Source of the DNA: Gemmatimonadaceae bacterium
GTDB taxonomy: Bacteria > Gemmatimonadota > Gemmatimonadetes > Gemmatimonadales > Gemmatimonadaceae
Reading direction: 5' to 3'
NCBI GenBank assembly: GCA_019637445.1
Contig: JAHBVS010000001.1
Coordinates: 1,895,586 to 1,959,585, forward strand
Length of the DNA: 64,000 nucleotides
Under the pieces are notes generated by a model. It ran no database searches and had not been told where the DNA came from. It saw only the letters and a program-made list of their open reading frames with translations. Shown here piece by piece: positions 24,957 through 46,487 of this stretch; within the stretch, counting starts at the first letter, position 1, and each line of letters begins with the position of its first letter. Both the position numbers and the translations under genes were made by a program.

Positions 24957-26399
24957 ATGCCGCTTCGCAACCAGGTGCAGTTGATCGCCTATCCCCACCG
25001 GATGGGCGGCAACCTTGCCGGACTCGCCGACATCCTCGAGACCCATCTCGCGAAGGCCGTCGGTGGCGTGCACATCCTGCCGTTCTATCCATCCAACGCG
25101 GACAGTGGCTTCTCGCCCCTCACGCACAAGGAAGTGGACCCCGCCTACGGCACCTGGGACGACATCGAACGCATCTCCCGGCGCATCGATCTCTGCGCCG
25201 ACCTCACGATCAACCACATCTCCGACGAGTCGGCCGAGTTCAAGGACTTCCTGGAGAAAGGGATGAAGTCAGAGCACGCCGATCTCTTCGTGCACGTGGA
25301 CCAGATGGGCGACATCACGCCCGACGACCTCGCCAAGATCCACATCCGCAAGGAGAAGGAGCCTTTCCGCGAGGTGAGGCTCGGCGACGGGACCACCGAC
25401 CGCGTGTGGACGACCTTCACCGAGAAGCAGATCGACCTGAACTACAACTCGCCGCGCACGTATGCGCTGATGGAGGACTATGTCACGTTCCTCCATTCGA
25501 AAGGCGTGAAGCTCTTCCGGCTCGATGCCTTCGGTTACACCACGAAACGACTCGGCACCAGCTGTTTCCTTGTGGAGCCCGAGGTCTACGAGATCCTGAA
25601 CTGGATCCATCGCGTCGCCGAGCGTCTTGGGGCGGACACCCTGCCCGAGGTGCACGACCATCCGAGCTATCAGTTCGCCATCTCGCTGCACGGGATGCGG
25701 CCGTATGGCTTCGCGCTGCCGCCGCTCATCCTGCACGCGCTGCTCGATGGCGACAGCCGCTACCTCAAGCAGTGGCTGCGGATGTGCCCGCGCAACCAGG
25801 TGTCCGTGCTCGACACGCACGACGGCATCTGCATTCCCGATGTCGAGGGCATCCTGCCGCAACAGAAGATCCAGGACCTCATCGACAACGTGTCGCAGCG
25901 CTCGGCTGATCCCATCCTCCGGCGTTCGGCGGCCAACGTGCACAGCGTGGGCGCCATCTATCAGCTCACTTGCACCTTCTTCGACGCCCTGAAGCAGAAC
26001 GACGATGCCTACGTGACGGCGCGTGCCCTGCAGCTCTTCGCGCCGGGCATCCCACAGGTCTACTACGCCGGCTGGCTGGCGCTGCAGAACGATGTGGAGC
26101 GCGCCGAGGAGACGGGCGACCCGCGGGAGATCAACCGGCACTATCTGACGAAGGACGAGGTGGACAAGGCGGCCGCGACGCCGCTCGTGAAGCGCCTCAC
26201 GCGACTCATGGAGTTTCGCTCCACGTATCCCGCGTTCCAGGGGACCTTCCACCTGCAGTACTCCAACGAGAAGAGCGTGTCGATCGCCTGGAAGAACGGC
26301 GACCACCGCTGCGAGCTCTTCGCCGACCTGTTGTTCAAGAAGTCCACCATCACCTATGTGGACCCGAACGCCGGTCGCAGCCTCACCATCAAGTGTTGA
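24957..26399 (+). CDS. GH13_18 phosphorylase, probably 2-O-alpha-glucosylglycerol phosphorylase
   Basis: The 480-residue protein aligns throughout with sucrose phosphorylases. The nucleophile Asp190 (FRLDAFGY), acid/base Glu231 (LPEVHDH) and transition-state Asp289 (DTHDGI) are intact, so it should cleave an alpha-glucoside with phosphate to give glucose-1-phosphate. The acceptor-site loop reads ANVHSVGAIYQ, where sucrose phosphorylases, from memory, have a SNLDLYQ-type loop. That argues for another acceptor. Its operon partners encode glucosylglycerol-phosphate synthase and a phosphatase, and related GH13_18 enzymes next to such genes (Marinobacter) are glucosylglycerol phosphorylases. I infer that role; sucrose or glucosylglycerate remain alternatives. 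The ATG follows a long untranslated leader. Confidence 0.85.
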   Translation: MPLRNQVQLIAYPHRMGGNLAGLADILETHLAKAVGGVHILPFYPSNADSGFSPLTHKEVDPAYGTWDDIERISRRIDLCADLTINHISDESAEFKDFLEKGMKSEHADLFVHVDQMGDITPDDLAKIHIRKEKEPFREVRLGDGTTDRVWTTFTEKQIDLNYNSPRTYALMEDYVTFLHSKGVKLFRLDAFGYTTKRLGTSCFLVEPEVYEILNWIHRVAERLGADTLPEVHDHPSYQFAISLHGMRPYGFALPPLILHALLDGDSRYLKQWLRMCPRNQVSVLDTHDGICIPDVEGILPQQKIQDLIDNVSQRSADPILRRSAANVHSVGAIYQLTCTFFDALKQNDDAYVTARALQLFAPGIPQVYYAGWLALQNDVERAEETGDPREINRHYLTKDEVDKAAATPLVKRLTRLMEFRSTYPAFQGTFHLQYSNEKSVSIAWKNGDHRCELFADLLFKKSTITYVDPNAGRSLTIKC

Positions 26400-34521: not shown

Positions 34522-36108
34522 ATGCCTCGCTCCCGACTAGTCACTGCCGCCACGCTCGCGCCGCTGCTTCTGGCGAGTTTCCTCGCGCTCCCACTCGAGG
34601 CGCAGCGATTCGACGTGATGGAAGCCACCATCCCCTCGCTTCACGCTGCGCTTCGTGCCAATCGCACGAGCTGCCGCGAGGTCGTGCAGGCGTATCTCGA
34701 TCGCATTGCGGCGTACGACAAGGAAGGCCCTGCGCTCAACGCCATCCAGAACGTGCATCCGCGGGCCCTGGCCATCGCCGACTCGCTCGACGCCTCACGC
34801 CGCGCCCGCGAGCCGATGGGGCCGCTGCACTGCGTGCCCGTCGTCGTGAAGGACCAAATCGAGACCTCCTCGATGCCGACGACCTACGGCTCGAAGCTCT
34901 TCGCCGACTTCACGCCCGAGCGTGATGCGACCACGGTGCTGCGACTGCAGGCCGCCGGCGCAATCGTGATCGCCAAGGCGACGATGGGCGAGTTTGCACA
35001 GCGTTACGTGAGCTCGTCGGCTGGCATCATCCGCAACGCCTACGACCGCACACGGAACCCCAGCGGCTCCTCGGGCGGCACGGCCAGCGCGGTCGCCGCC
35101 AACTTCGGCCTCGTCGGCATCGGCGAGGACACGGGCGGATCCATCCGCGGCCCCGCAGCGGTGAGCAACCTCGTGGGCCTGCGTCCCACGCTGCCCCTGA
35201 TCAGCCGCTTCGGGATGATGCCCGCGAGCCCCACGCAGGACACGATGGGCCCGATGACGCGCACGGTCGCCGATGCGGCACGCGTGCTTGAAGTCATTGC
35301 CGGCTACGACGCCAAGGATCCGGTCACCGCAGAGTCGTACGGACGGGTGCCAGCCAACTACTCCACCGCGCTCAAGGCCGATGCACTCCGCGGCGTGCGA
35401 CTGGGCATCCTCCGCACACCGCGCGATTCCGCGCAGCGTGCGCGGGACCCGGAGGGATTCGCGGCGTTCGACTCCCTCTTCACTGCAGCCGTCGCCGACC
35501 TCCGCGCCCTCGGCGCCGAGATCGTGGACTCGCTCGACATCCCCGTGCTGCGTCAACGCGGTGGTGGTGGCAACGACTACGAGACCGAGGCGGCCACGAA
35601 CGCGTATCTCGCCGAGCATCCGAACGCGCCGGTGAAGACGCTGGCGGACATCCTCACCAGCGGTGAGGTCGTGCCCTGGCGTGCCCGCAGCCTTTACGGT
35701 TCCGCTGGGCAGAGCACGAACGACATTGGCTATCTGGCGGTGATGAAGCGCCGCGAGGCCGTGCGCACCGGAGTGCTGCAGGCGATGGCCGACCAACGGC
35801 TCGACGCGATCATCTACCTGACCTTCGACGCGCCGGCCACGGTCATCGCCGAGGACGTGATGACGAATCCGCGGCCGACCGACGGCTACGGTCTTGGCGA
35901 CAATCGCGGGTTGAGCCCGACGCTTGCGTATCCGGCACTCACGGTGCCGGCTGGCTTCGCACCGAACGGCATGCCGGCAGGGCTCGAGTTCCTGGGTCGG
36001 CCGTACAGCGAACAGCAACTCCTCGCGTTCGGCTTCGCCTACGAGCAGCGGTCGAAGCATCGGCGTGCCGCGCCGACGGCGCCGGCACTCGCGCGCTCGG
36101 GTCGCTGA
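34522..36108 (+). CDS. Secreted amidase-signature family amidase
   Basis: The 528-residue protein has a signal peptide (LAPLLLASFLALPLEAQ). The amidase-signature domain carries the catalytic triad region: Lys in PVVVKDQIETSSMP, the Gly/Ser-rich NPSGSSGGTASAVAANFGLV, and IGEDTGGSIRGPAAVSNLVG with the cis-Ser and nucleophilic Ser. It should hydrolyse an amide bond in the periplasm or outside; the substrate (peptide amide, aryl or fatty amide) cannot be told. The ATG at MPRSRLV was chosen for the signal peptide. The stop overlaps the start of the kinase gene (TGATG), an arrangement that couples their translation. Confidence 0.9.
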   Translation: MPRSRLVTAATLAPLLLASFLALPLEAQRFDVMEATIPSLHAALRANRTSCREVVQAYLDRIAAYDKEGPALNAIQNVHPRALAIADSLDASRRAREPMGPLHCVPVVVKDQIETSSMPTTYGSKLFADFTPERDATTVLRLQAAGAIVIAKATMGEFAQRYVSSSAGIIRNAYDRTRNPSGSSGGTASAVAANFGLVGIGEDTGGSIRGPAAVSNLVGLRPTLPLISRFGMMPASPTQDTMGPMTRTVADAARVLEVIAGYDAKDPVTAESYGRVPANYSTALKADALRGVRLGILRTPRDSAQRARDPEGFAAFDSLFTAAVADLRALGAEIVDSLDIPVLRQRGGGGNDYETEAATNAYLAEHPNAPVKTLADILTSGEVVPWRARSLYGSAGQSTNDIGYLAVMKRREAVRTGVLQAMADQRLDAIIYLTFDAPATVIAEDVMTNPRPTDGYGLGDNRGLSPTLAYPALTVPAGFAPNGMPAGLEFLGRPYSEQQLLAFGFAYEQRSKHRRAAPTAPALARSGR

Positions 36109-38786
36109 TGGCCGAGTCCGCGATGGACCGTCTCGCTGCCGCCGTGGCGGACCGCTACCGCCTCGAGAAGCAGCTTGGGCAGGGCGGGATGGCCACCGTG
36201 TACCTCGCGCAGGACCTGAAGCACGAGCGCAAGGTCGCCATCAAGGTGCTCAAGCCGGAACTCGCCGCCGTGCTCGGCGCCGAGCGCTTCGTGACCGAGA
36301 TCAAGACAACGGCGGCGCTGCAGCATCCGCACATCCTGCCGCTCTTCGATTCAGGCGAGGCCGCGGGCTTTCTGTTCTACGTGATGCCCTTCATCCAGGG
36401 CGAAACGCTGCGCGACCGGCTGAATCGCGAGACGCAGCTGGATGTGGACGAGGCGCTGCGCATCACGCGCGACGTGGCCGACGCCCTCGACTACGCGCAT
36501 CGGCAAGGTGTGATCCATCGCGACATCAAGCCGGAGAACATCCTGCTGCACGACGGCCGCCCGATGGTGGCGGACTTCGGCATCGCACTCGCGGTGAGCG
36601 CCGCCGCCGGCGGCCGGATGACGGAGACGGGGCTATCGCTCGGCACGCCGCACTACATGAGCCCCGAGCAGGCCACGGCCGAGAAGGAGATCACCGGGCG
36701 CAGCGACATCTACTCGCTGGCCAGCGTCTGCTACGAGATGCTCGCTGGCCAGCCGCCGCACCTCGGCGGCTCGGCGCAGCAGATCGTGATGAAGATCATC
36801 GCCGAGACGGCGCAACCGGTGACGGCACTACGACGCACGGTGCCGGCCCACGTGTCCGCGGCACTCGCCAAGGCGTTGGAGAAGCTGCCGGCCGATCGCT
36901 TTGCGACGGCCAAGGCGTTCGCGGATGCGCTGGCCGATGAGCACTTCACGACGCGCACCACGGCCGGGACTGCCACGGCGTCCAGGAGTGCGGACAACCG
37001 TCTCGTGATGGTGCTTGGTGCGGCGCTGGTCTTGGCGGTGGCGTTCGGTATCTGGGGGGCGATGCGTCCGGGTGCGACGCCGCAGCCAAGTGCATACGCG
37101 GTGGCCCTGCCCAACAACGCTCAGCCGACGCCGAACGGGTTTGTCGTCCTGTCCCCAGACGCGTCGCGCATCATCTACCTCGGGCCGTCGGAGAACGGGC
37201 GCGCCGAGCGGAAGCTGTGGATGAAGCGGCGCGATGCCGTGGCGCCCGTCGCGATCACCGACACGGACGCCGCCAACGCAGCTGCGATCTCGCCGGACGG
37301 CAAGCAGCTCGCGTATGTGACCGGGGACTTTATTCGGCGAATGGCCGTCGATGGCCGCACGAGTTCGATCGTGGCCACTGGCGTAGCCAATGTGCCGTAC
37401 AGCGTCTCGTGGCAAGACGATACGACGCTCGTGTACATCGGCGGCAGCGGCCAGAGCCTGATGCGCGTTGGCCAGTCCGGCGGCACGCCCGCCACACTGA
37501 TGCGTTCGGACTCGCTGCAGTTCTGGGGCGTGTCGAGCCTTCCTGGGCGACGCGGCATCCTGATGATGGGCTGCCTGGCGCCCTGCGACCGCTCTGACGT
37601 TTGGATCCTCGATGCCGACGGCGAGAACCCGCAGGTGCTGGCCGAGGATCGGCGCATCGCCGTCTATCTGGAGGGGGGCGCGCTGCTGAGCGTCAATCGG
37701 AGCGCCGTCGCCACGGTGCAGCCGCTCGACCTGCGGTCACGCACAGTGAACGGGCCCGAGGTGGCGGTGATGGATAGCATCGCGATCGTCGGTTCCACGG
37801 TGTACCTCGCCGTGTCCAGGAACGGGACCCTCGTCACGCGCCGCGGGAGCAACTCCCAGATGAGTGAGTTGGAGCTTGCGTTCTTTGACCGCCGTGGCAG
37901 GGAGGAGCGGCCGGACACGAGCTTCACCTTCCGCGTGACGCAGTTCGCCGGCGATCACGGCTGGTCCCTCTCGCCGGACGGCCGCCGCTTGGCCATTGGC
38001 CTGAACACCGGCTCCGGCGACGATGTCTGGGTGAAGTCCCTGCCGCGCGGACCGGCGCAGCGGATCACGTTCAGCACGCAGGCGGAACGACGCCCGCGCT
38101 GGTCGCCCGACGGACGCTACGTGACCTATGTGATGGATGACGGCATTCATATGCGGCGCGCGGACGGAACCGGCGGCGACTCGCTCCTGATCGCGGAGCG
38201 ACTCAACGAAGGCGCCATCTCACCCGACGGCAAGTGGCTGGTGCTGCGACGCGGGGCGCTTGGCGCCGTCTCCGGCGGTCGCGACATCTACGGCGTACGG
38301 CTCGATGGGGATACCACGCGGGTGCCGCTTATCGTGACGCCGTATGACGAGAATGCCTTCATGATCTCGCCGGACGGCCGTTGGATTGCCTACGAGTCGG
38401 ACGAGACCGGGCGCCAGGAAATCTTCGTGCGGCCGTTCCCGGAGACGCGCGAGAACAAGGTGCAGGTCTCGGTGGACGGCGCGATCACGCCTGCGTGGTC
38501 CCGGGATGGACGCGAGCTCTACTTCGTCCGTGCGCGTGACAACGTAATGATGGCGGCGCGGGTCCAGCCCGGCCCCGAGTTCCGCACGGCTGCAGCGGAG
38601 TCCCTGTTCGTGCTCCCGCAGGCGACCAGCAATCTCTTGCGCAGCTGGTACACGCCGTACGACGTGATGGCGGACGGTCGCTTCATCCTGGTTCGTGCGG
38701 GGACGCAGGTCGAGTACCTGAGCAGCCGCCCCATCGAGGTCTTCGAGAACTGGTGGGATCCAAAGACGGCCGCGCTGCGGCGCTGA
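36108..38786 (+). CDS. Transmembrane Ser/Thr protein kinase with extracytoplasmic TolB/PD40 propeller
   Basis: The protein has 892 residues. The kinase domain at about 15-285 has a glycine-rich loop LGQGGMATVYLAQ, catalytic Lys in VAIKVLK, VIHRDIKPENIL, VADFGIALAV in the DFG position, and GTPHYMSPEQA. One membrane helix lies near 303-325 (LVMVLGAALVLAVAFGIWGA). The extracytoplasmic part holds repeated PD40 blades (SPDGKQLAYV, SPDGRRLAIGL, SPDGRYVTYV, SPDGRWIAYES). The family, common in Gemmatimonadota and Acidobacteriota, is thought to sense envelope ligands and phosphorylate cytoplasmic targets. The start overlaps the amidase stop by one base, so the two may be one functional unit. Confidence 0.92.
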   Translation: MAESAMDRLAAAVADRYRLEKQLGQGGMATVYLAQDLKHERKVAIKVLKPELAAVLGAERFVTEIKTTAALQHPHILPLFDSGEAAGFLFYVMPFIQGETLRDRLNRETQLDVDEALRITRDVADALDYAHRQGVIHRDIKPENILLHDGRPMVADFGIALAVSAAAGGRMTETGLSLGTPHYMSPEQATAEKEITGRSDIYSLASVCYEMLAGQPPHLGGSAQQIVMKIIAETAQPVTALRRTVPAHVSAALAKALEKLPADRFATAKAFADALADEHFTTRTTAGTATASRSADNRLVMVLGAALVLAVAFGIWGAMRPGATPQPSAYAVALPNNAQPTPNGFVVLSPDASRIIYLGPSENGRAERKLWMKRRDAVAPVAITDTDAANAAAISPDGKQLAYVTGDFIRRMAVDGRTSSIVATGVANVPYSVSWQDDTTLVYIGGSGQSLMRVGQSGGTPATLMRSDSLQFWGVSSLPGRRGILMMGCLAPCDRSDVWILDADGENPQVLAEDRRIAVYLEGGALLSVNRSAVATVQPLDLRSRTVNGPEVAVMDSIAIVGSTVYLAVSRNGTLVTRRGSNSQMSELELAFFDRRGREERPDTSFTFRVTQFAGDHGWSLSPDGRRLAIGLNTGSGDDVWVKSLPRGPAQRITFSTQAERRPRWSPDGRYVTYVMDDGIHMRRADGTGGDSLLIAERLNEGAISPDGKWLVLRRGALGAVSGGRDIYGVRLDGDTTRVPLIVTPYDENAFMISPDGRWIAYESDETGRQEIFVRPFPETRENKVQVSVDGAITPAWSRDGRELYFVRARDNVMMAARVQPGPEFRTAAAESLFVLPQATSNLLRSWYTPYDVMADGRFILVRAGTQVEYLSSRPIEVFENWWDPKTAALRR

Positions 38787-40939: not shown

Positions 40940-41074
40940 GGCCTGAAATGTGACATCGCGGGGTCCCTACGGGTACTGCGCACTATGACGGACCACGCTA
41001 TAGACGATCTCCTTCGAGGTGGTGCGACGTGGCGGGCAGGTGAGCGAAAGGGATATCCTCCCAAGACCTCACTG

Positions 41075-41632
41075 ATGTCCGACACCCCGCCCAATTCATC
41101 GATCGATCCAACGCTCCCCCTCCGCGCCAAGGCGGGGGACCGGCAGGCATTCGCCCAGCTGGTGGACGTCACGTACCAACGCTCCTTGCGCTTCGCCCTG
41201 CACATGCTCGGCAATCGCGAGGATGCCGAGGAGGCGGTGCAGGACACGTTCGTGCGGGTCTACCAGAATCTGGATCGGTTCCGCGCCGATGCGCGCTTCG
41301 AGCCCTGGTTGTTCCGGATCCTGGCCAACCGCTGCCGCACGCTGCTGGAGAAGCGCAAGCGGCACTCGAGCGTGATCCAGTACGGCGATGTGCCGGAGCG
41401 CTTCGGCGCGACGGAGGATGAAAGCTCGGAGTGGGTCGAGGAGATCTATCGCGTCCTCGACGCCATGCCGGCCGAACAACGCGAAGCGTTCCTCCTGCGA
41501 CACGTGGAGGACATGCCATACGAGGATATCGCGGCCATCACAGGCGTCCGCCTGAGTGCGCTGCGTATGCGAGTGAAACGGGCCTGCGACGTACTGCGGG
41601 CACGCCTGACGGAGGTCATGAAGGATGGATGA
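41075..41632 (+). CDS. ECF-type RNA polymerase sigma factor
   Basis: The 185-residue protein has the two ECF domains. Region 2 is at about 25-95 (FALHMLGNREDAEEAVQDTF, VYQNLDRFR), with FEPWLFRILANRCR following it. Region 4 is at about 125-180 (LDAMPAEQREAFLLRHVEDM, YEDIAAITGVRLSALRMRVK). It should direct RNA polymerase to a small regulon, very likely including its own operon. The ATG at MSDTPPNS is taken; the upstream in-frame reading runs into the aldehyde dehydrogenase antisense and was rejected. The last eight bases overlap the next gene, whose product is a membrane protein in the place normally held by an anti-sigma factor. Confidence 0.92.
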   Translation: MSDTPPNSSIDPTLPLRAKAGDRQAFAQLVDVTYQRSLRFALHMLGNREDAEEAVQDTFVRVYQNLDRFRADARFEPWLFRILANRCRTLLEKRKRHSSVIQYGDVPERFGATEDESSEWVEEIYRVLDAMPAEQREAFLLRHVEDMPYEDIAAITGVRLSALRMRVKRACDVLRARLTEVMKDG

Positions 41633-42233
41633 AATGGAGCAGAAGGACCTGGTGATCGATCGAGTGCGCGCATCGTTGCAGAACGCCCCCGGCGCCGAGG
41701 CCGACCCGCGCGCCGTCGCGCGGTTGCTGTCGGCGGCCTGGGAAGCACCGCGCCCCTCAGCGTGGCGCCGGATGCTTGATGCCTGGCGCTTTCCCTCCTT
41801 CTCGGGCCTTGGGGCTGGCGCGCTGGCAACCGGCGCGCTGGTGGTCGGTTTCGTGACGCGCGGCGCGGTGACGCCGAACGCGCCCGCCGAGCCTGTGGCG
41901 GCCTCCGGCGCGCCGACGGGCGAGTTCCCAATTGTACAGAACGTGGCCTACGATGCCGCCGAGTTGCGCGTGCCCACGGAGTTCGTGTTCGAGCACGGCG
42001 AGGCGCGGTCCGTCTCGCTGGTGGGTGATTTCAATGGTTGGAAGGACGGGACGCACGAGCTCGTGCGGCTCCCGAACGGGATGTGGACCACCACGGTACC
42101 CCTGCCGCCAGGGCGGCACGTGTACTCCTTCATGGTTGACGGTACATTGCTCGTGGCCGATCCCCGCGCGCCCAAGGCGGGCGACGCGGACTACGGCCAC
42201 GAGGGGTCTGTCGTGATGGTCTTCGCCCGATGA
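41625..42233 (+). CDS. Single-pass membrane protein with extracytoplasmic AMPK/CBM48-type glycogen-binding domain; candidate anti-sigma factor
   Basis: The 202-residue protein has a cytoplasmic N-terminus of about 57 residues (helical, charged), a membrane helix at about 59-79 (GLGAGALATGALVVGFVTRG), a linker, and a C-terminal domain at about 115-200. That domain reads VSLVGDFNGWKDG, NGMWTTTVPLPPGRHVYSFM and VDGTLLVADPRAP, the AMPK-beta glycogen-binding pattern. Trp139 and Trp154 match the usual carbohydrate-stacking positions, while the later Lys and Asn of animal AMPK are not evident. Overlap of eight bases with the sigma gene and the topology suggest that the short cytoplasmic part restrains sigma and the outer domain senses a glucan. 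No zinc anti-sigma HxxxCxxC motif is present, so the anti-sigma role is an inference. Confidence 0.85.
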   Translation: MDEMEQKDLVIDRVRASLQNAPGAEADPRAVARLLSAAWEAPRPSAWRRMLDAWRFPSFSGLGAGALATGALVVGFVTRGAVTPNAPAEPVAASGAPTGEFPIVQNVAYDAAELRVPTEFVFEHGEARSVSLVGDFNGWKDGTHELVRLPNGMWTTTVPLPPGRHVYSFMVDGTLLVADPRAPKAGDADYGHEGSVVMVFAR

Positions 42234-42877
42234 TCCGGTATCGAGTCCTACTCGCCGCGCTGGTGCTCGCCAGCGCGTCCGCCGCTCCCGCGCTTGCGCA
42301 GGGGACGGTGGTGCCGGGCATCGCCGACGCGAGGGCACGCGCGGCCGTCGAACGCGAGATTGCGTCGGCGGCGGCGAAGGGGCTGCCGGTACGGCCCCTC
42401 ATCGCGAAGGCACAGGAAGGGGTCACGAAGCAGGCGGCCGGGGAGCTGATCCGGGTCGCGGTGGCTTCGCAGGCCAGGCGTCTCGAGCAGGCGCGGGACC
42501 TCCTTGCACCCTCGACATCGGAGGCGGAGCTCGTGTCCGGCGCGGATGCGCTGGCCGTGGGCGTGCCGGGACCGATGCTGAAGCAGATCCGCGCCGCGTA
42601 CCCGGTGGGGCAGTCGGTGGCGATGCCACTCGACGTGCTCACCGAGTTGGTCGCGCGCGGGGTCCCCGCGAAGCACGCGCTCGAGCAGATCACCCAACTG
42701 ATGCTGCGGGGCGCAACGCCCACGCAGATTGCCTCGCTGGGGGCGTCGGTGCAGACCGACGTCGCCGCAGGCCTGGCGCCCGATGCGGCGCTGGAGGTTC
42801 GGGCTCGGGGCGTGATGTCGCTGCTCCCGTCCCCTGCCGCCGCCGCCGCTCTCGCTCCCAGCGGCCGGAGGCCATAG
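42230..42877 (+). CDS. Secreted helical protein with short Gly-x-Pro repeats, unknown
   Basis: I recognise no family. The 215-residue protein has a clear Sec signal ending APALAQG. The mature part is mostly helical and contains irregular repeats of a turn Gly-x-x-Pro followed by a helix: KGLPVRPLIAKAQEG, VGVPGPMLKQIRAAYP, RGVPAKHALEQITQLM, RGATPTQIASLGASVQ, AGLAPDAALEVRARG. Such repeats may form a binding surface or scaffold. The ATG overlaps the previous stop as ATGA and the next gene begins seven bases after its stop, so it is an integral part of the sigma-factor operon. Confidence 0.75.
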   Translation: MIRYRVLLAALVLASASAAPALAQGTVVPGIADARARAAVEREIASAAAKGLPVRPLIAKAQEGVTKQAAGELIRVAVASQARRLEQARDLLAPSTSEAELVSGADALAVGVPGPMLKQIRAAYPVGQSVAMPLDVLTELVARGVPAKHALEQITQLMLRGATPTQIASLGASVQTDVAAGLAPDAALEVRARGVMSLLPSPAAAAALAPSGRRP

Positions 42878-42884
42878 TGCCGGC

Positions 42885-44033
42885 GTGATCCGAGCGCGCC
42901 GCGCGGCGCTCGGGTTGGTCCTTCTCGGCGCCCCCGTCACCGGGGGCGCCCAAGCCGTTTCCGACCTCCGCGTCGAAGCCGGCTTTGCCTCCGTCAAGCA
43001 GCGAGGATTCGACGCCGAGAACGCGGTGCTGCTCGCGGCCCTCTGGCGACGACCGAGCGAGGCATTCACCCTGCTGACCAGCGCCAATCTCACCTACGCG
43101 GCGGATTCCCTCGCCGCGGCCCAGGGAGTTGCCGCGTTGGACATTCCTTGGAACGTGAGCGAGCGCCTGCGCACCGAGGTCGGTGTCGCAGGCGCTTCGT
43201 TTTCGCTGCGCTCGGCCGGCCGCGGCGGCAACGTGAACGCCTTCGCTCGGCAGCACTTCGTCGGTCTCACCGGCGGGGCGTTCGGCGGCTTTGCGCTGGC
43301 CGGCACCAATCGCGACGATGTGAGTAGTCGCTCGTGGCTTGCCGACCTCGGCGCCTGGTATCGCTGGGAGCATCTCTATTTGAGCGGGACGGTCACGCGC
43401 AGGACGTCATCCGACTGGCCGCTGTTGTTGGCCTCGGGTGTGTTCCGGAATCCCGACGACGAGCGCTACGAGCTGCTCGATGCCCAGGTGCTCCTACAGG
43501 CCCGCAACGGCCCCCACGACTTCACGCTTTCCTTCACGCAGCGCGATGGCATCGGCGGGACCAATGCGCGCTTCCAGGCGCTGAGCGCGAGTGGAACGCT
43601 GCAGTTCACTGAACGCGTGGCCATCCTTGCCTCGGGCGGACGTCAGCTCGCGGATCCGCTGCGCGGACTGCCGCAGGCGGACCTGCTGACAGTCTCGATG
43701 CGTCTCTCGCTCGGCTCCAAGCCGCTGCCCGTGATGCAACGCTCGGCCATCGCAAGTGCAGAGGTGATCCGCCAAGTCGGCGGCGGCGGTGAGCTCGTGG
43801 TGCGCGTGTTCGCCAGCGACACGATGCTGGTGGACGTAGCCGGCGACTTCAGCGACTGGCGACCCGTGCAGATGCAGCGCGAGGGTAGCTTCTGGGTTGC
43901 GCGCGTCCCGCTGCGGCCCGGCAAGTACCGCGTGGCCGTGCGCGTGAACCTCGGTCCCTGGCGCGCGCCGCGAAACCTCGCGCGTGTGCGCGACGACTAC
44001 GGCGGCGAGTCCGGGCTGGTGGTGGTACCTTAG
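42885..44033 (+). CDS. Secreted beta-rich protein with C-terminal AMPK/CBM48-type glycogen-binding domain
   Basis: The 382-residue protein has a signal peptide (ALGLVLLGAPVTGGAQA). Residues 28-285 show alternating amphipathic strands with aromatic ends (for example WLADLGAWYRWEHLYLSGTV, LQARNGPHDFTLSFTQRD), resembling an outer-membrane barrel or a large beta sandwich. The last 80 residues form a second glycogen-binding module: MLVDVAGDFSDWRPVQM, GSFWVARVPLRPGKYRVAV, LGPWRAP. The Trp residues of the binding face are kept. Together with the membrane protein two genes upstream, it suggests a glucan-binding surface apparatus under the operon's own sigma factor. The start is GTG, seven bases after the preceding stop. 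Confidence 0.8.
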   Translation: MIRARRAALGLVLLGAPVTGGAQAVSDLRVEAGFASVKQRGFDAENAVLLAALWRRPSEAFTLLTSANLTYAADSLAAAQGVAALDIPWNVSERLRTEVGVAGASFSLRSAGRGGNVNAFARQHFVGLTGGAFGGFALAGTNRDDVSSRSWLADLGAWYRWEHLYLSGTVTRRTSSDWPLLLASGVFRNPDDERYELLDAQVLLQARNGPHDFTLSFTQRDGIGGTNARFQALSASGTLQFTERVAILASGGRQLADPLRGLPQADLLTVSMRLSLGSKPLPVMQRSAIASAEVIRQVGGGGELVVRVFASDTMLVDVAGDFSDWRPVQMQREGSFWVARVPLRPGKYRVAVRVNLGPWRAPRNLARVRDDYGGESGLVVVP

Positions 44034-44062: not shown

Positions 44063-45373
44063 GTGCCTGCCTCCAATCGTCGTCAGTTCCTGTCCGGTCT
44101 CGCGGCCGCCACCACCGGTGCCGGTCTCGCCCTGCCCGCCATCAGCGAGCGCGCCTTCGCGCAGATGTTCGCCGCCGAGGCCATTGCGGGCGACCGCAGC
44201 GCCGTCGAGATCGCCAACGACGAGACCTACTGGTCGCAGATCCAGCGTGCGTTCGACATCGACCGCACGATGATCAACCTGAACAACGGCGGCATCTCGC
44301 CCACGCCCTCGCACGTACTGGAACAGCTGTTCCGTGACCTGCGCTTCGTGAACGAGCTACCGGTCGAGCACAACTGGCGCATCCTCGAGCCGCGGATGGA
44401 GAGCACGCGCCGAGAACTGGCCAAGGAATACGGCTGCGACACCGAGGAGATGGCCGTGACGCGCAACGCGTCGGAGGCGCTGGAGATCTGCATCCTCGGG
44501 CTCGACCTGCGCCGTGGTGACGAGGTGATCGTCACCAACCAGAACTACGGGCGCATGCTCACCACCTGGGACCAGCGCGTGCGCCGCGATGGGATCGTGC
44601 TCAAGTCGGTGAGCTTCCCGGTGCCGCTGACGGATCCGCGTGTGCTGGTGCGCCGCATCGAGGAACAGATCACGCCGCGCACCAAGGCCATCGAGCTCCC
44701 GCACATAACCAACCTCACGGGCCAGGTGCTGCCGATCCGCGACATCGTGCGCATCGCCAAGCCCAAGGGCATCCAGGTCATCGTGGACGGCGCGCACGCC
44801 TTCGCGCACTTCCCGTTCACACGTGACGAGCTCGAGTGCGACTACTACGGCACCTCGCTGCACAAGTGGCTGCACGCGCCGATCGGCGTCGGCTTCCTCT
44901 CCGTGCGCAAGGACCGCATCAAGAGCCTCTGGCCGATGATGGCCGCCGATGCCAAGCAGGACGAGGACATCCGCAAGTACGAGCAGATCGGCACGCACCC
45001 GCAGGCCAACTTCAATGCCGTGTCCGTGGCGCTCACGTTCCATCGCGGCATTGGTGTGGAGCGCAAGGCGGCGCGCCTGCGCTACCTGCGCAATCACTGG
45101 GCCGAGGCGCTCAAGCAAACGAGCGACCGTGTGTCCGTGCCCACGGAGCTCGGCATGGACAAGGGCGGCGCGATTGCGCTGCTGCACATCGAGGGGCTAG
45201 AGACACCGAAGCTCGGCAGCTGGCTGATGAGCAAGTACCGCATCGTGAACACGCCCATCGTGCACGAGGAGTTCAACGGGCTGCGCATCACGCCCAACAT
45301 CTACACGTCGATGGACGAGCTCGGGACCTTCGTGGACGCCGTGAAGGTGGCGCTGCGCCGCGGGATTGCCTGA
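44063..45373 (+). CDS. Tat-exported class V aminotransferase (isopenicillin-N-epimerase-like)
   Basis: The 436-residue protein has a twin-arginine leader, SNRRQFLSGLAAATT, then a hydrophobic stretch and a likely cleavage after AFA. The body is a PLP-dependent fold-type I, class V protein: VTRNASEALEI, VIVDGAHAFAHFPF and SLHKWLHAPIGVGFL, with Lys268 as the PLP Schiff-base residue. Family members are desulfurases, epimerases and aminotransferases; the substrate is unknown. Export by Tat fits a cofactor loaded in the cytoplasm. The GTG start follows CCGGAG. The gene is 29 bp after the sigma-factor operon and may belong to it. Confidence 0.87.
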   Translation: MPASNRRQFLSGLAAATTGAGLALPAISERAFAQMFAAEAIAGDRSAVEIANDETYWSQIQRAFDIDRTMINLNNGGISPTPSHVLEQLFRDLRFVNELPVEHNWRILEPRMESTRRELAKEYGCDTEEMAVTRNASEALEICILGLDLRRGDEVIVTNQNYGRMLTTWDQRVRRDGIVLKSVSFPVPLTDPRVLVRRIEEQITPRTKAIELPHITNLTGQVLPIRDIVRIAKPKGIQVIVDGAHAFAHFPFTRDELECDYYGTSLHKWLHAPIGVGFLSVRKDRIKSLWPMMAADAKQDEDIRKYEQIGTHPQANFNAVSVALTFHRGIGVERKAARLRYLRNHWAEALKQTSDRVSVPTELGMDKGGAIALLHIEGLETPKLGSWLMSKYRIVNTPIVHEEFNGLRITPNIYTSMDELGTFVDAVKVALRRGIA

Positions 45374-45912: not shown

Positions 45913-45971
45913 CGGTCGAAACGGGTCGGCGCTTGTGACAGGTCTTTGGGCTGACGGGTACAGCTTGCAAG

Positions 45972-46487
45972 ATGCCTTCTTCGACCGTGCCTGAACGAGT
46001 GCGCAATGCCGGATTGCGGCGGCGCGTCCTGCGTGGCGTGGCCCTCGGGTTGGCCGTGCTGCTTGCCAGCGCCTGCGATGCACCGACCGAAACGGCGATA
46101 CTCATGCACTACGAGCTGCGCGCGATTGGCGATAGCGCCGTGCCCGCGACCTTTGCATTCGGACCTCCAGATGCCATCGCGCCGCTGCTGGTCCGCTACG
46201 GCGTCGATACGATTGCTGTCGCGGCGAATGGCTCCGGGTACTGGAGGCAGAAGGAGCTGCGATGGAGCGACACACCACTCTTCGGGCGCGATCTCAGCCA
46301 GGACGTGCAGATCACCGGAATCGGCGGGCTACGTCTCCTCGTGCACAGCGACTGCTGGGGCGACATCGCGCCTTGCAGCGAGCGGGCGAGCAAGCGGATC
46401 CTGGAGTTCGGTCCCGAGCGCATGGTACTCGAGTCCCCATTCGGTGAGTGGCTGTTCGTGCGAATTGTAGGTTTCGCAGCCCGCTAG
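45972..46487 (+). CDS. Small lipoprotein of unknown function
   Basis: The 171-residue protein has a charged N-terminus (RNAGLRRRVLRG), a hydrophobic segment and a lipobox LLASAC with Cys35, so it is probably lipid-anchored. The mature part is beta-rich (for example ILMHYELRAIGDSAVPATFA, MVLESPFGEWLFVRIVGFAA) and has two further cysteines (DCWGDIAPCSE) that could form a disulfide. I do not recognise the family. It is the last intact gene before the decayed insertion sequence, and shares no obvious operon with the EVE gene 59 bp upstream. Confidence 0.7.
   Translation: MPSSTVPERVRNAGLRRRVLRGVALGLAVLLASACDAPTETAILMHYELRAIGDSAVPATFAFGPPDAIAPLLVRYGVDTIAVAANGSGYWRQKELRWSDTPLFGRDLSQDVQITGIGGLRLLVHSDCWGDIAPCSERASKRILEFGPERMVLESPFGEWLFVRIVGFAAR

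Follow-up and report, generated by a model that had tools for sequence, protein, structure and literature searches.

The STN-type domains of the FecR and FoxR anti-sigma factors and those of the TonB-dependent transducers have been reported to contact each other directly (PMC11637429). In Dma, an extracytoplasmic function (ECF) anti-sigma factor is linked to an outer-membrane beta-barrel in a single chain, which runs from the anti-sigma domain through a helix and a disordered tether to the barrel (PMC13088901). The anti-sigma factor RsgI, found in Gram-positive bacteria, contains an RsgI_N domain and CBM3, PA14 or GH10 modules of demonstrated binding, and its Sigma-I partner, which lacks sigma4, serves a cellulosome regulon (PMC4711584). 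Here, we describe a four-gene ECF sigma operon in a 64,000-nucleotide stretch of DNA (hereafter the window, in which all coordinates are given) from a Gemmatimonadaceae bacterium (GCA_019637445.1, contig JAHBVS010000001.1, positions 1,895,586-1,959,585). The operon represents a familiar type of cell-envelope signalling in a form not described before, and is not evidently a glycogen sensor. No paper on the module, on CBM48 or AMPK1_CBM domains associated with an anti-sigma factor, or on ECF envelope signalling in Gemmatimonadota was found in the open-access literature searched.

The anatomy of the module is that of trans-envelope signalling, because it combines a cytoplasmic sigma factor, a one-helix anti-sigma factor, a secreted helical protein and a barrel, with matching domains at the periplasmic ends of the two membrane proteins. 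All four genes are on the forward strand; genes 1 and 2 overlap by 8 bases and genes 2 and 3 by 4 bases, while 7 bases separate genes 3 and 4. The initial annotation had described this packing from the open reading frames 41075-41632, 41625-42233, 42230-42877 and 42885-44033, and it was indeed confirmed, except that 41075 is an internal ATG of the sigma frame, which begins at the ATG at 40985. Gene 1 (40985-41632) thus encodes an ECF sigma factor of 215 amino acids that consists only of the sigma2 and sigma4 regions (Pfam Sigma70_r2, 2.8e-16; Sigma70_r4_2, 8e-15), with no regions 1 or 3.

Gene 2 (41625-42233, + strand) encodes a single-pass, anti-sigma-like membrane protein of 202 amino acids, in which a cytoplasmic N-terminus (residues 1-57) is followed by one hydrophobic transmembrane helix (residues ~59-80) and a periplasmic CBM48/AMPK1_CBM module (residues 116-187; 41970-42185). 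Both the AMPK1_CBM (PF16561, 3.6e-10) and the CBM_48 (PF02922, 1.3e-7) profiles scored above their curated Pfam cut-offs in this module (40.3 bits against a cut-off of 26.8), and the family profile of gene 2 matched the solved structure of the AMPK-beta1 carbohydrate-binding module, 1z0n, at 3e-12. The calls of an ECF sigma factor and of a one-helix membrane protein ending in a glycogen-binding-type module, both made at the outset from the sequence, are therefore upheld. Class I anti-sigma factors (ASDI) have an N-terminal domain of three helices that matches known profiles; a Pfam scan of the window protein matched no anti-sigma domain, and likewise no FecR domain and no RsgI_N. NCBIfam anti-sigma models gave weak matches, all below cut-off, in 4 of 44 relatives, one of them at residues 11-99 of the relative. 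It is to be noted that residues 1-57 of the window protein contain no cysteine, and hence no Hx3Cx2C motif.

Gene 4 (42885-44033, + strand; 382 amino acids) had been annotated as a secreted beta-rich protein with a second such module; the module was confirmed, whereas the rest of the protein is better described as a predicted 14-stranded outer-membrane beta-barrel. The AlphaFold model, built on an alignment of 47 sequences (mean predicted local distance difference test score, pLDDT, 90), showed 14 strands at residues 27-275 (42963-43709) after the signal peptide, mostly with pLDDT >90 across this block, then a low-confidence linker (residues 283-288), and finally the C-terminal CBM48-like module (43749-44030). 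When this model was searched by Foldseek, the porins OmpC, OmpF and OmpG were matched, and the protein is accordingly predicted to be a porin-like, even-stranded outer-membrane barrel; no TonB-dependent receptor, plug or STN domain was matched by Pfam or seen in the AlphaFold barrel. In outer-membrane barrels, an even number of strands brings both ends of the barrel to the same side, namely the periplasm. Since the modelled strand count is even, the gene 4 module is most likely periplasmic, where it would face the module of the anti-sigma factor, and is not a surface-binding domain as previously proposed; the longest loop in the model (residues 176-194) is on the outer side.

The gene 4 module is more divergent than that of gene 2. 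In the protein scan, residues 300-378 matched AMPK1_CBM and CBM_48 at ~2e-4 each, just below cut-off; in the genome scan, the same module scored 6.7e-5 and 25 bits with CBM_48, above the cut-off of 22.4 for PF02922. The gene 4 family profile matched AMPK-beta and SIP2 structures at 9e-5, AMPK1_CBM was found in 38 of the 47 family members, and the modules of genes 2 and 4 aligned with each other at 9e-16 by hhalign. The structure-profile matches of the two module families comprised AMPK-beta, SIP2 and glucan enzymes. Together, these profile and structure-profile matches place a CBM48-like fold in both extracytoplasmic domains. A CBM48 domain outside the cytoplasm, which had been flagged as an oddity, is not unusual by itself, for it also occurs in secreted amylases and pullulanases; the peculiarity here is that an anti-sigma factor and an outer-membrane barrel bear it.

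The remaining gene, gene 3 (42230-42877, + strand), encodes a secreted protein of 215 amino acids that AlphaFold modelled entirely in helices (mean pLDDT 89), in agreement with its earlier description as a secreted helical protein. It had no recognizable relative in Pfam, NCBIfam or, at an E value threshold of 0.001, the PDB. Within the genus, its sequence is 77-84% identical, against 53-61% for the anti-sigma factor.

The module is widely conserved in the phylum. Relatives of the anti-sigma factor were found in 83 of 99 near genomes; of 297 genomes drawn from across Gemmatimonadota, 200 matched its profile, with up to nine copies each. In a set of 61 loci, consisting of 60 neighbourhoods plus the window and searched in six frames, the sigma, anti-sigma, helical and barrel genes were all present except at three contig ends and at locus L062, whose helical gene did not receive a call of its own. 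The exact four-gene order was labelled in 45 of the 61 loci, the window included, and several others were rearranged; in these labels, four anti-sigma genes were mistaken for barrels owing to long read-through frames. The gene order is thus conserved well beyond the source genome. Distances between loci were then correlated gene by gene (mirror-tree), where shared descent contributes to all the r values: the sigma factor correlated with the N-terminus of the anti-sigma factor at r 0.64 but with its module at 0.30, and with the barrel and the helical protein at 0.54 and 0.43, respectively. That the sigma factor tracks the N-terminus more closely than the module is as expected if the N-terminus holds the sigma factor. 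A search of GTDB contigs with the anti-sigma factor retrieved only CBM48 loci, such as a secreted amylase, and no module, although this search was seeded by short peptides and leaves absence outside the phylum unproven; plasmid searches gave no match.

A promoter was recognized directly upstream of the operon (40949-40977, + strand), consisting of a -35 element TGTGAC (40949-40954), a spacer of 16 nucleotides and a -10-like element GGGTACT (40971-40977). It is conserved in orthologues and paralogues. Among the genus orthologues it is retained as AAATGTGACA...GGGTAC, with the consensus TGTGAC-N16/17-GGGTA(C/T); the sigma frame is open upstream in the genus, and in most orthologues an ATG or GTG start codon lies nine bases past GGGTA. 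As the start codon in the window likewise follows the -10 box by 7 nucleotides, a spacing common to most genus orthologues, the sigma mRNA is probably leaderless. The alternative that GTGAC...GGGTA is itself coding sequence, beginning with a GTG start, was rejected, since the frames that follow contain stop codons in several loci. When GTGAC-N15/18-G[GA]GT[ACT] was sought within 260 nucleotides upstream of the sigma2 domain, it was found in 34 of 60 loci whose sigma domain is on the + strand, paralogous modules included, compared with none of 47 other genes and 0.95% of segments taken at random. Such a motif before both orthologous and paralogous sigma genes is the usual sign of autoregulation.

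The same promoter also appears to mark a set of lipoprotein genes. In the source genome, GTGAC-N16/17-GGGTA occurred at 19 sites, as against 5 matches to the reversed pattern, 4 to a version with a spacing of 20/21 and 3 to one with a shuffled -35 element. Twelve of the 19 sites were followed within ~65 nucleotides by a gene whose product has a lipoprotein signal, as opposed to none of 7 control sites, while lipoprotein-like genes made up 14 of 335 called genes (~4%). A full census of five species of the genus that carry the operon placed lipoprotein genes after 32 of 75 sites (26 automatically, 6 by eye) and recovered the operon itself in each. In contrast, five genomes without an orthologue (G001, G009, G020, G033 and G047) showed no clear excess of the motif, and none of the 25 sites examined there preceded a lipoprotein gene (Fisher p 1e-5 against the carriers). 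The window itself contains a second copy of the motif, GTGACAGGTCTTTGGGCTGACGGGTA (45935-45960, + strand), 11 nucleotides before the start codon of a predicted target (45972-46487, + strand), a small lipoprotein of 171 amino acids with the lipobox LASAC that partially matches a motif-bearing lipoprotein of another species. The motif is retained ahead of homologous lipoproteins in different species, and homologues of several targets, namely a serpin lipoprotein and three others, adjoin the module in other genera. Ig-like, carboxypeptidase-regulatory-like, cupredoxin and serpin domains are among those found in the targets. These promoter matches suggest that the sigma factor of the operon probably switches on lipid-anchored envelope proteins.

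Certain individual sites are recorded here in their own right. The serpin lipoprotein L179 is a predicted target in genome G010, and its homologues lie directly beside paralogous modules at L058, L060 and L061. The second-best match to the operon promoter, TGTGAC...GGGTACT (G000:C1:780263-780292; L096), is just upstream of etfB-etfA-like genes of an electron-transfer flavoprotein. Two small conserved proteins also follow the motif: a non-lipoprotein of 174-177 amino acids (MDVMVQ, then VVTLYGxPTPESLALALAA), with the motif upstream in four species (L108, L129, L174 and L185), and a second one, mostly starting with MYLTAKGG, in which the motif is 15-46 nucleotides before the start codon in five species (L161, L177, L186, L202 and L223).

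The domains, the predicted topology, the conserved four-gene module, the conserved promoter and the lipoprotein enrichment are established; in the following proposal, each contact, the nature of the signal, the proteolytic step and the reading of lipoprotein promoters by this sigma factor are inferred. The module would be a trans-envelope ECF sigma/anti-sigma switch of FecA/FecR-like logic, with paired CBM48-fold domains and a lipoprotein regulon, a reading to which we give roughly even chances. In the resting state, the N-terminus of gene 2 would hold the sigma factor at the inner membrane, while its periplasmic CBM48-fold domain would meet the homologous domain of gene 4, either directly or through the helical protein of gene 3 as a bridge or co-sensor. 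A change at the outer membrane, be it a ligand in the porin-like barrel or damage to the barrel or envelope, would alter this contact, upon which the anti-sigma factor would be inactivated, regulated proteolysis being the likeliest means, and the sigma factor set free. From TGTGAC/GTGAC-N16/17-GGGTA promoters, most of which leave only a very short leader, the freed sigma factor would then transcribe its own operon and a set of small lipoprotein genes.

Several observations weigh against this proposal. That the barrel, the helical protein and the anti-sigma factor touch is a presumption, and in the mirror-tree comparison the gene 4 module showed no co-variation with the sigma factor (r 0.00) and a marginal one with the gene 2 module (r 0.27, p 0.05). 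The regulon is uneven among carriers, as G011 has two sites only, one of which is its own operon, and in G012 lipoprotein genes follow only 2 of 13 sites. The comparison genomes are not perfect either, since G001 and G009, although without an orthologue, carry a distant paralogue; moreover G002, which is 71% complete and in which no orthologue was seen, still has two lipoprotein sites. Lastly, the lipoprotein sites mostly read GGGTAG, as against GGGTAC/T at the operon.

This last difference in the base after GGGTA also speaks for the strongest of the alternatives, in which a sigma factor other than that of the operon, either a different ECF factor or the housekeeping one, reads the lipoprotein promoters, and the operon sigma controls its own operon only. 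GTGAC and TAG/TAC boxes at such a spacing resemble the housekeeping promoters of high-GC bacteria. Nonetheless, the genomes without an orthologue, with their lack of a clear motif excess and of lipoprotein sites, argue against it, as do the similarly short leader spacing at operon and lipoprotein sites and the restriction of the targets largely to one class, unlike housekeeping genes. We consider this alternative less likely than not.

A glycan sensor, with both modules binding alpha-glucan or another periplasmic polysaccharide, was also considered, and this was the role originally assigned to the operon. In AMPK-beta1, W100 and W133 form the stacking surface for glucose, and K126 and N150 assist. 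The fold of the modules is that of a carbohydrate-binding module, and the W100 equivalent is invariant, being present in 44 of 44 anti-sigma factors and 50 of 50 barrel proteins; 46 of the 50 barrel modules, that of gene 4 among them, retain an equivalent of W133, but only 23 of the 44 anti-sigma modules do so and none from the source genus. In the intact anti-sigma factors of the genus, W133 is replaced by Leu or Val, N150 by Gly or Ser and K126 by Ala or Ser, such that W100 alone is kept. The source genome, complete by its quality figures, contains no CBM48 outside the operon, which means that no branching or debranching enzyme in it bears one, whereas the identical search found CBM48 in 10 of 14 control genomes. 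Glucan enzymes were absent from the commonest gene families flanking the modules at other loci, and the predicted targets are not glucan genes. Thus, in spite of the precedent of RsgI with its cellulose-binding modules (PMC4711584), glucan sensing was not borne out: glycogen sensing by this anti-sigma factor is unlikely, a conserved ligand pocket in the barrel module and some paralogues is possible, and a glycan sensor in the broader sense is improbable.

Equally improbable, in our estimate, is an envelope-stress monitor with no specific ligand, in which the anti-sigma factor would sense misassembled barrels or lipoproteins in the manner of sigma-E/RseA-RseB, with either the barrel or the gene 3 protein as the guarded client: a predicted regulon of envelope lipoproteins plus the module's own barrel would fit it, and up to nine paralogues per genome would suit client-specific guards, but the module has no PDZ protease, RseB-like or LolB-like gene, and the occurrence of matching modules on the two membrane proteins points to pairing over general stress sensing.

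Three neighbouring genes deserve mention. A secreted pyridoxal phosphate enzyme (44063-45373), which belongs to the class V aminotransferases and bears a twin-arginine-like signal, begins 29 bases past gene 4 and may be co-transcribed with the operon; in most loci of the genus and in some of the family such a gene trails the module, but it is absent beside most other modules. A serine/threonine kinase fused to PD40 (WD40-like) repeats is encoded near the operon (36108-38786). About 15 kb from the operon, a protein resembling, on inspection by eye, a GH13 enzyme of the sucrose-phosphorylase type is encoded (24957-26399), and the genome scan gave no CBM48 match there.

The trans-envelope switch that we favour is of interest for its distribution, as about two thirds of the genomes sampled carry the module, often in multiple copies, in a phylum of soil and water bacteria that is widespread and little studied. 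With its readable promoter and predicted lipoprotein regulon, it is also directly testable. More tentatively, and with somewhat less than even confidence, we suggest that it represents an undescribed, phylum-wide class of trans-envelope signalling, in which CBM48-fold domains paired between a porin-like outer-membrane barrel and an ECF anti-sigma factor, assisted by a novel helical periplasmic protein, would inform RNA polymerase of conditions at the outer membrane and govern a regulon of lipoproteins, with the CBM48 fold acting as a domain for protein contacts. If true, this would be a signalling use of the AMPK/CBM48 fold and, next to STN pairing and the Dma fusion, a third route by which an outer-membrane barrel is linked to an ECF sigma factor.

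Comparison with the known systems defines the module further. As in AMPK-beta and other CBM48 modules, the two domains share the sequence family, the predicted fold and the invariant first stacking tryptophan; unlike in those, they are periplasmic, and the second tryptophan and the asparagine contact are lost in the anti-sigma factors of the genus. RsgI of Clostridium thermocellum is likewise a membrane anti-sigma factor with the fold of a carbohydrate module outside the cytoplasm (PMC4711584), but the sigma factor here, unlike SigI, is an ECF factor with sigma4, and gene 2 has no RsgI_N match. In contrast to Dma, the anti-sigma factor and the barrel are encoded by two distinct genes, both in the window and at the loci that were examined, and each has its own CBM48-fold domain, and the phylum is different. 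The closest likeness is to FecA/FecR/FecI and FoxA/FoxR, which also place an ECF sigma factor, a one-helix anti-sigma factor and an outer-membrane barrel protein in one locus, with homologous domains at the periplasmic ends of both membrane proteins, STN in those and CBM48 here. Instead of the TonB-dependent receptor, plug, STN and FecR domains of those systems, however, the module has a porin-like 14-stranded barrel with a C-terminal domain, an extra secreted helical protein and a predicted lipoprotein regulon.

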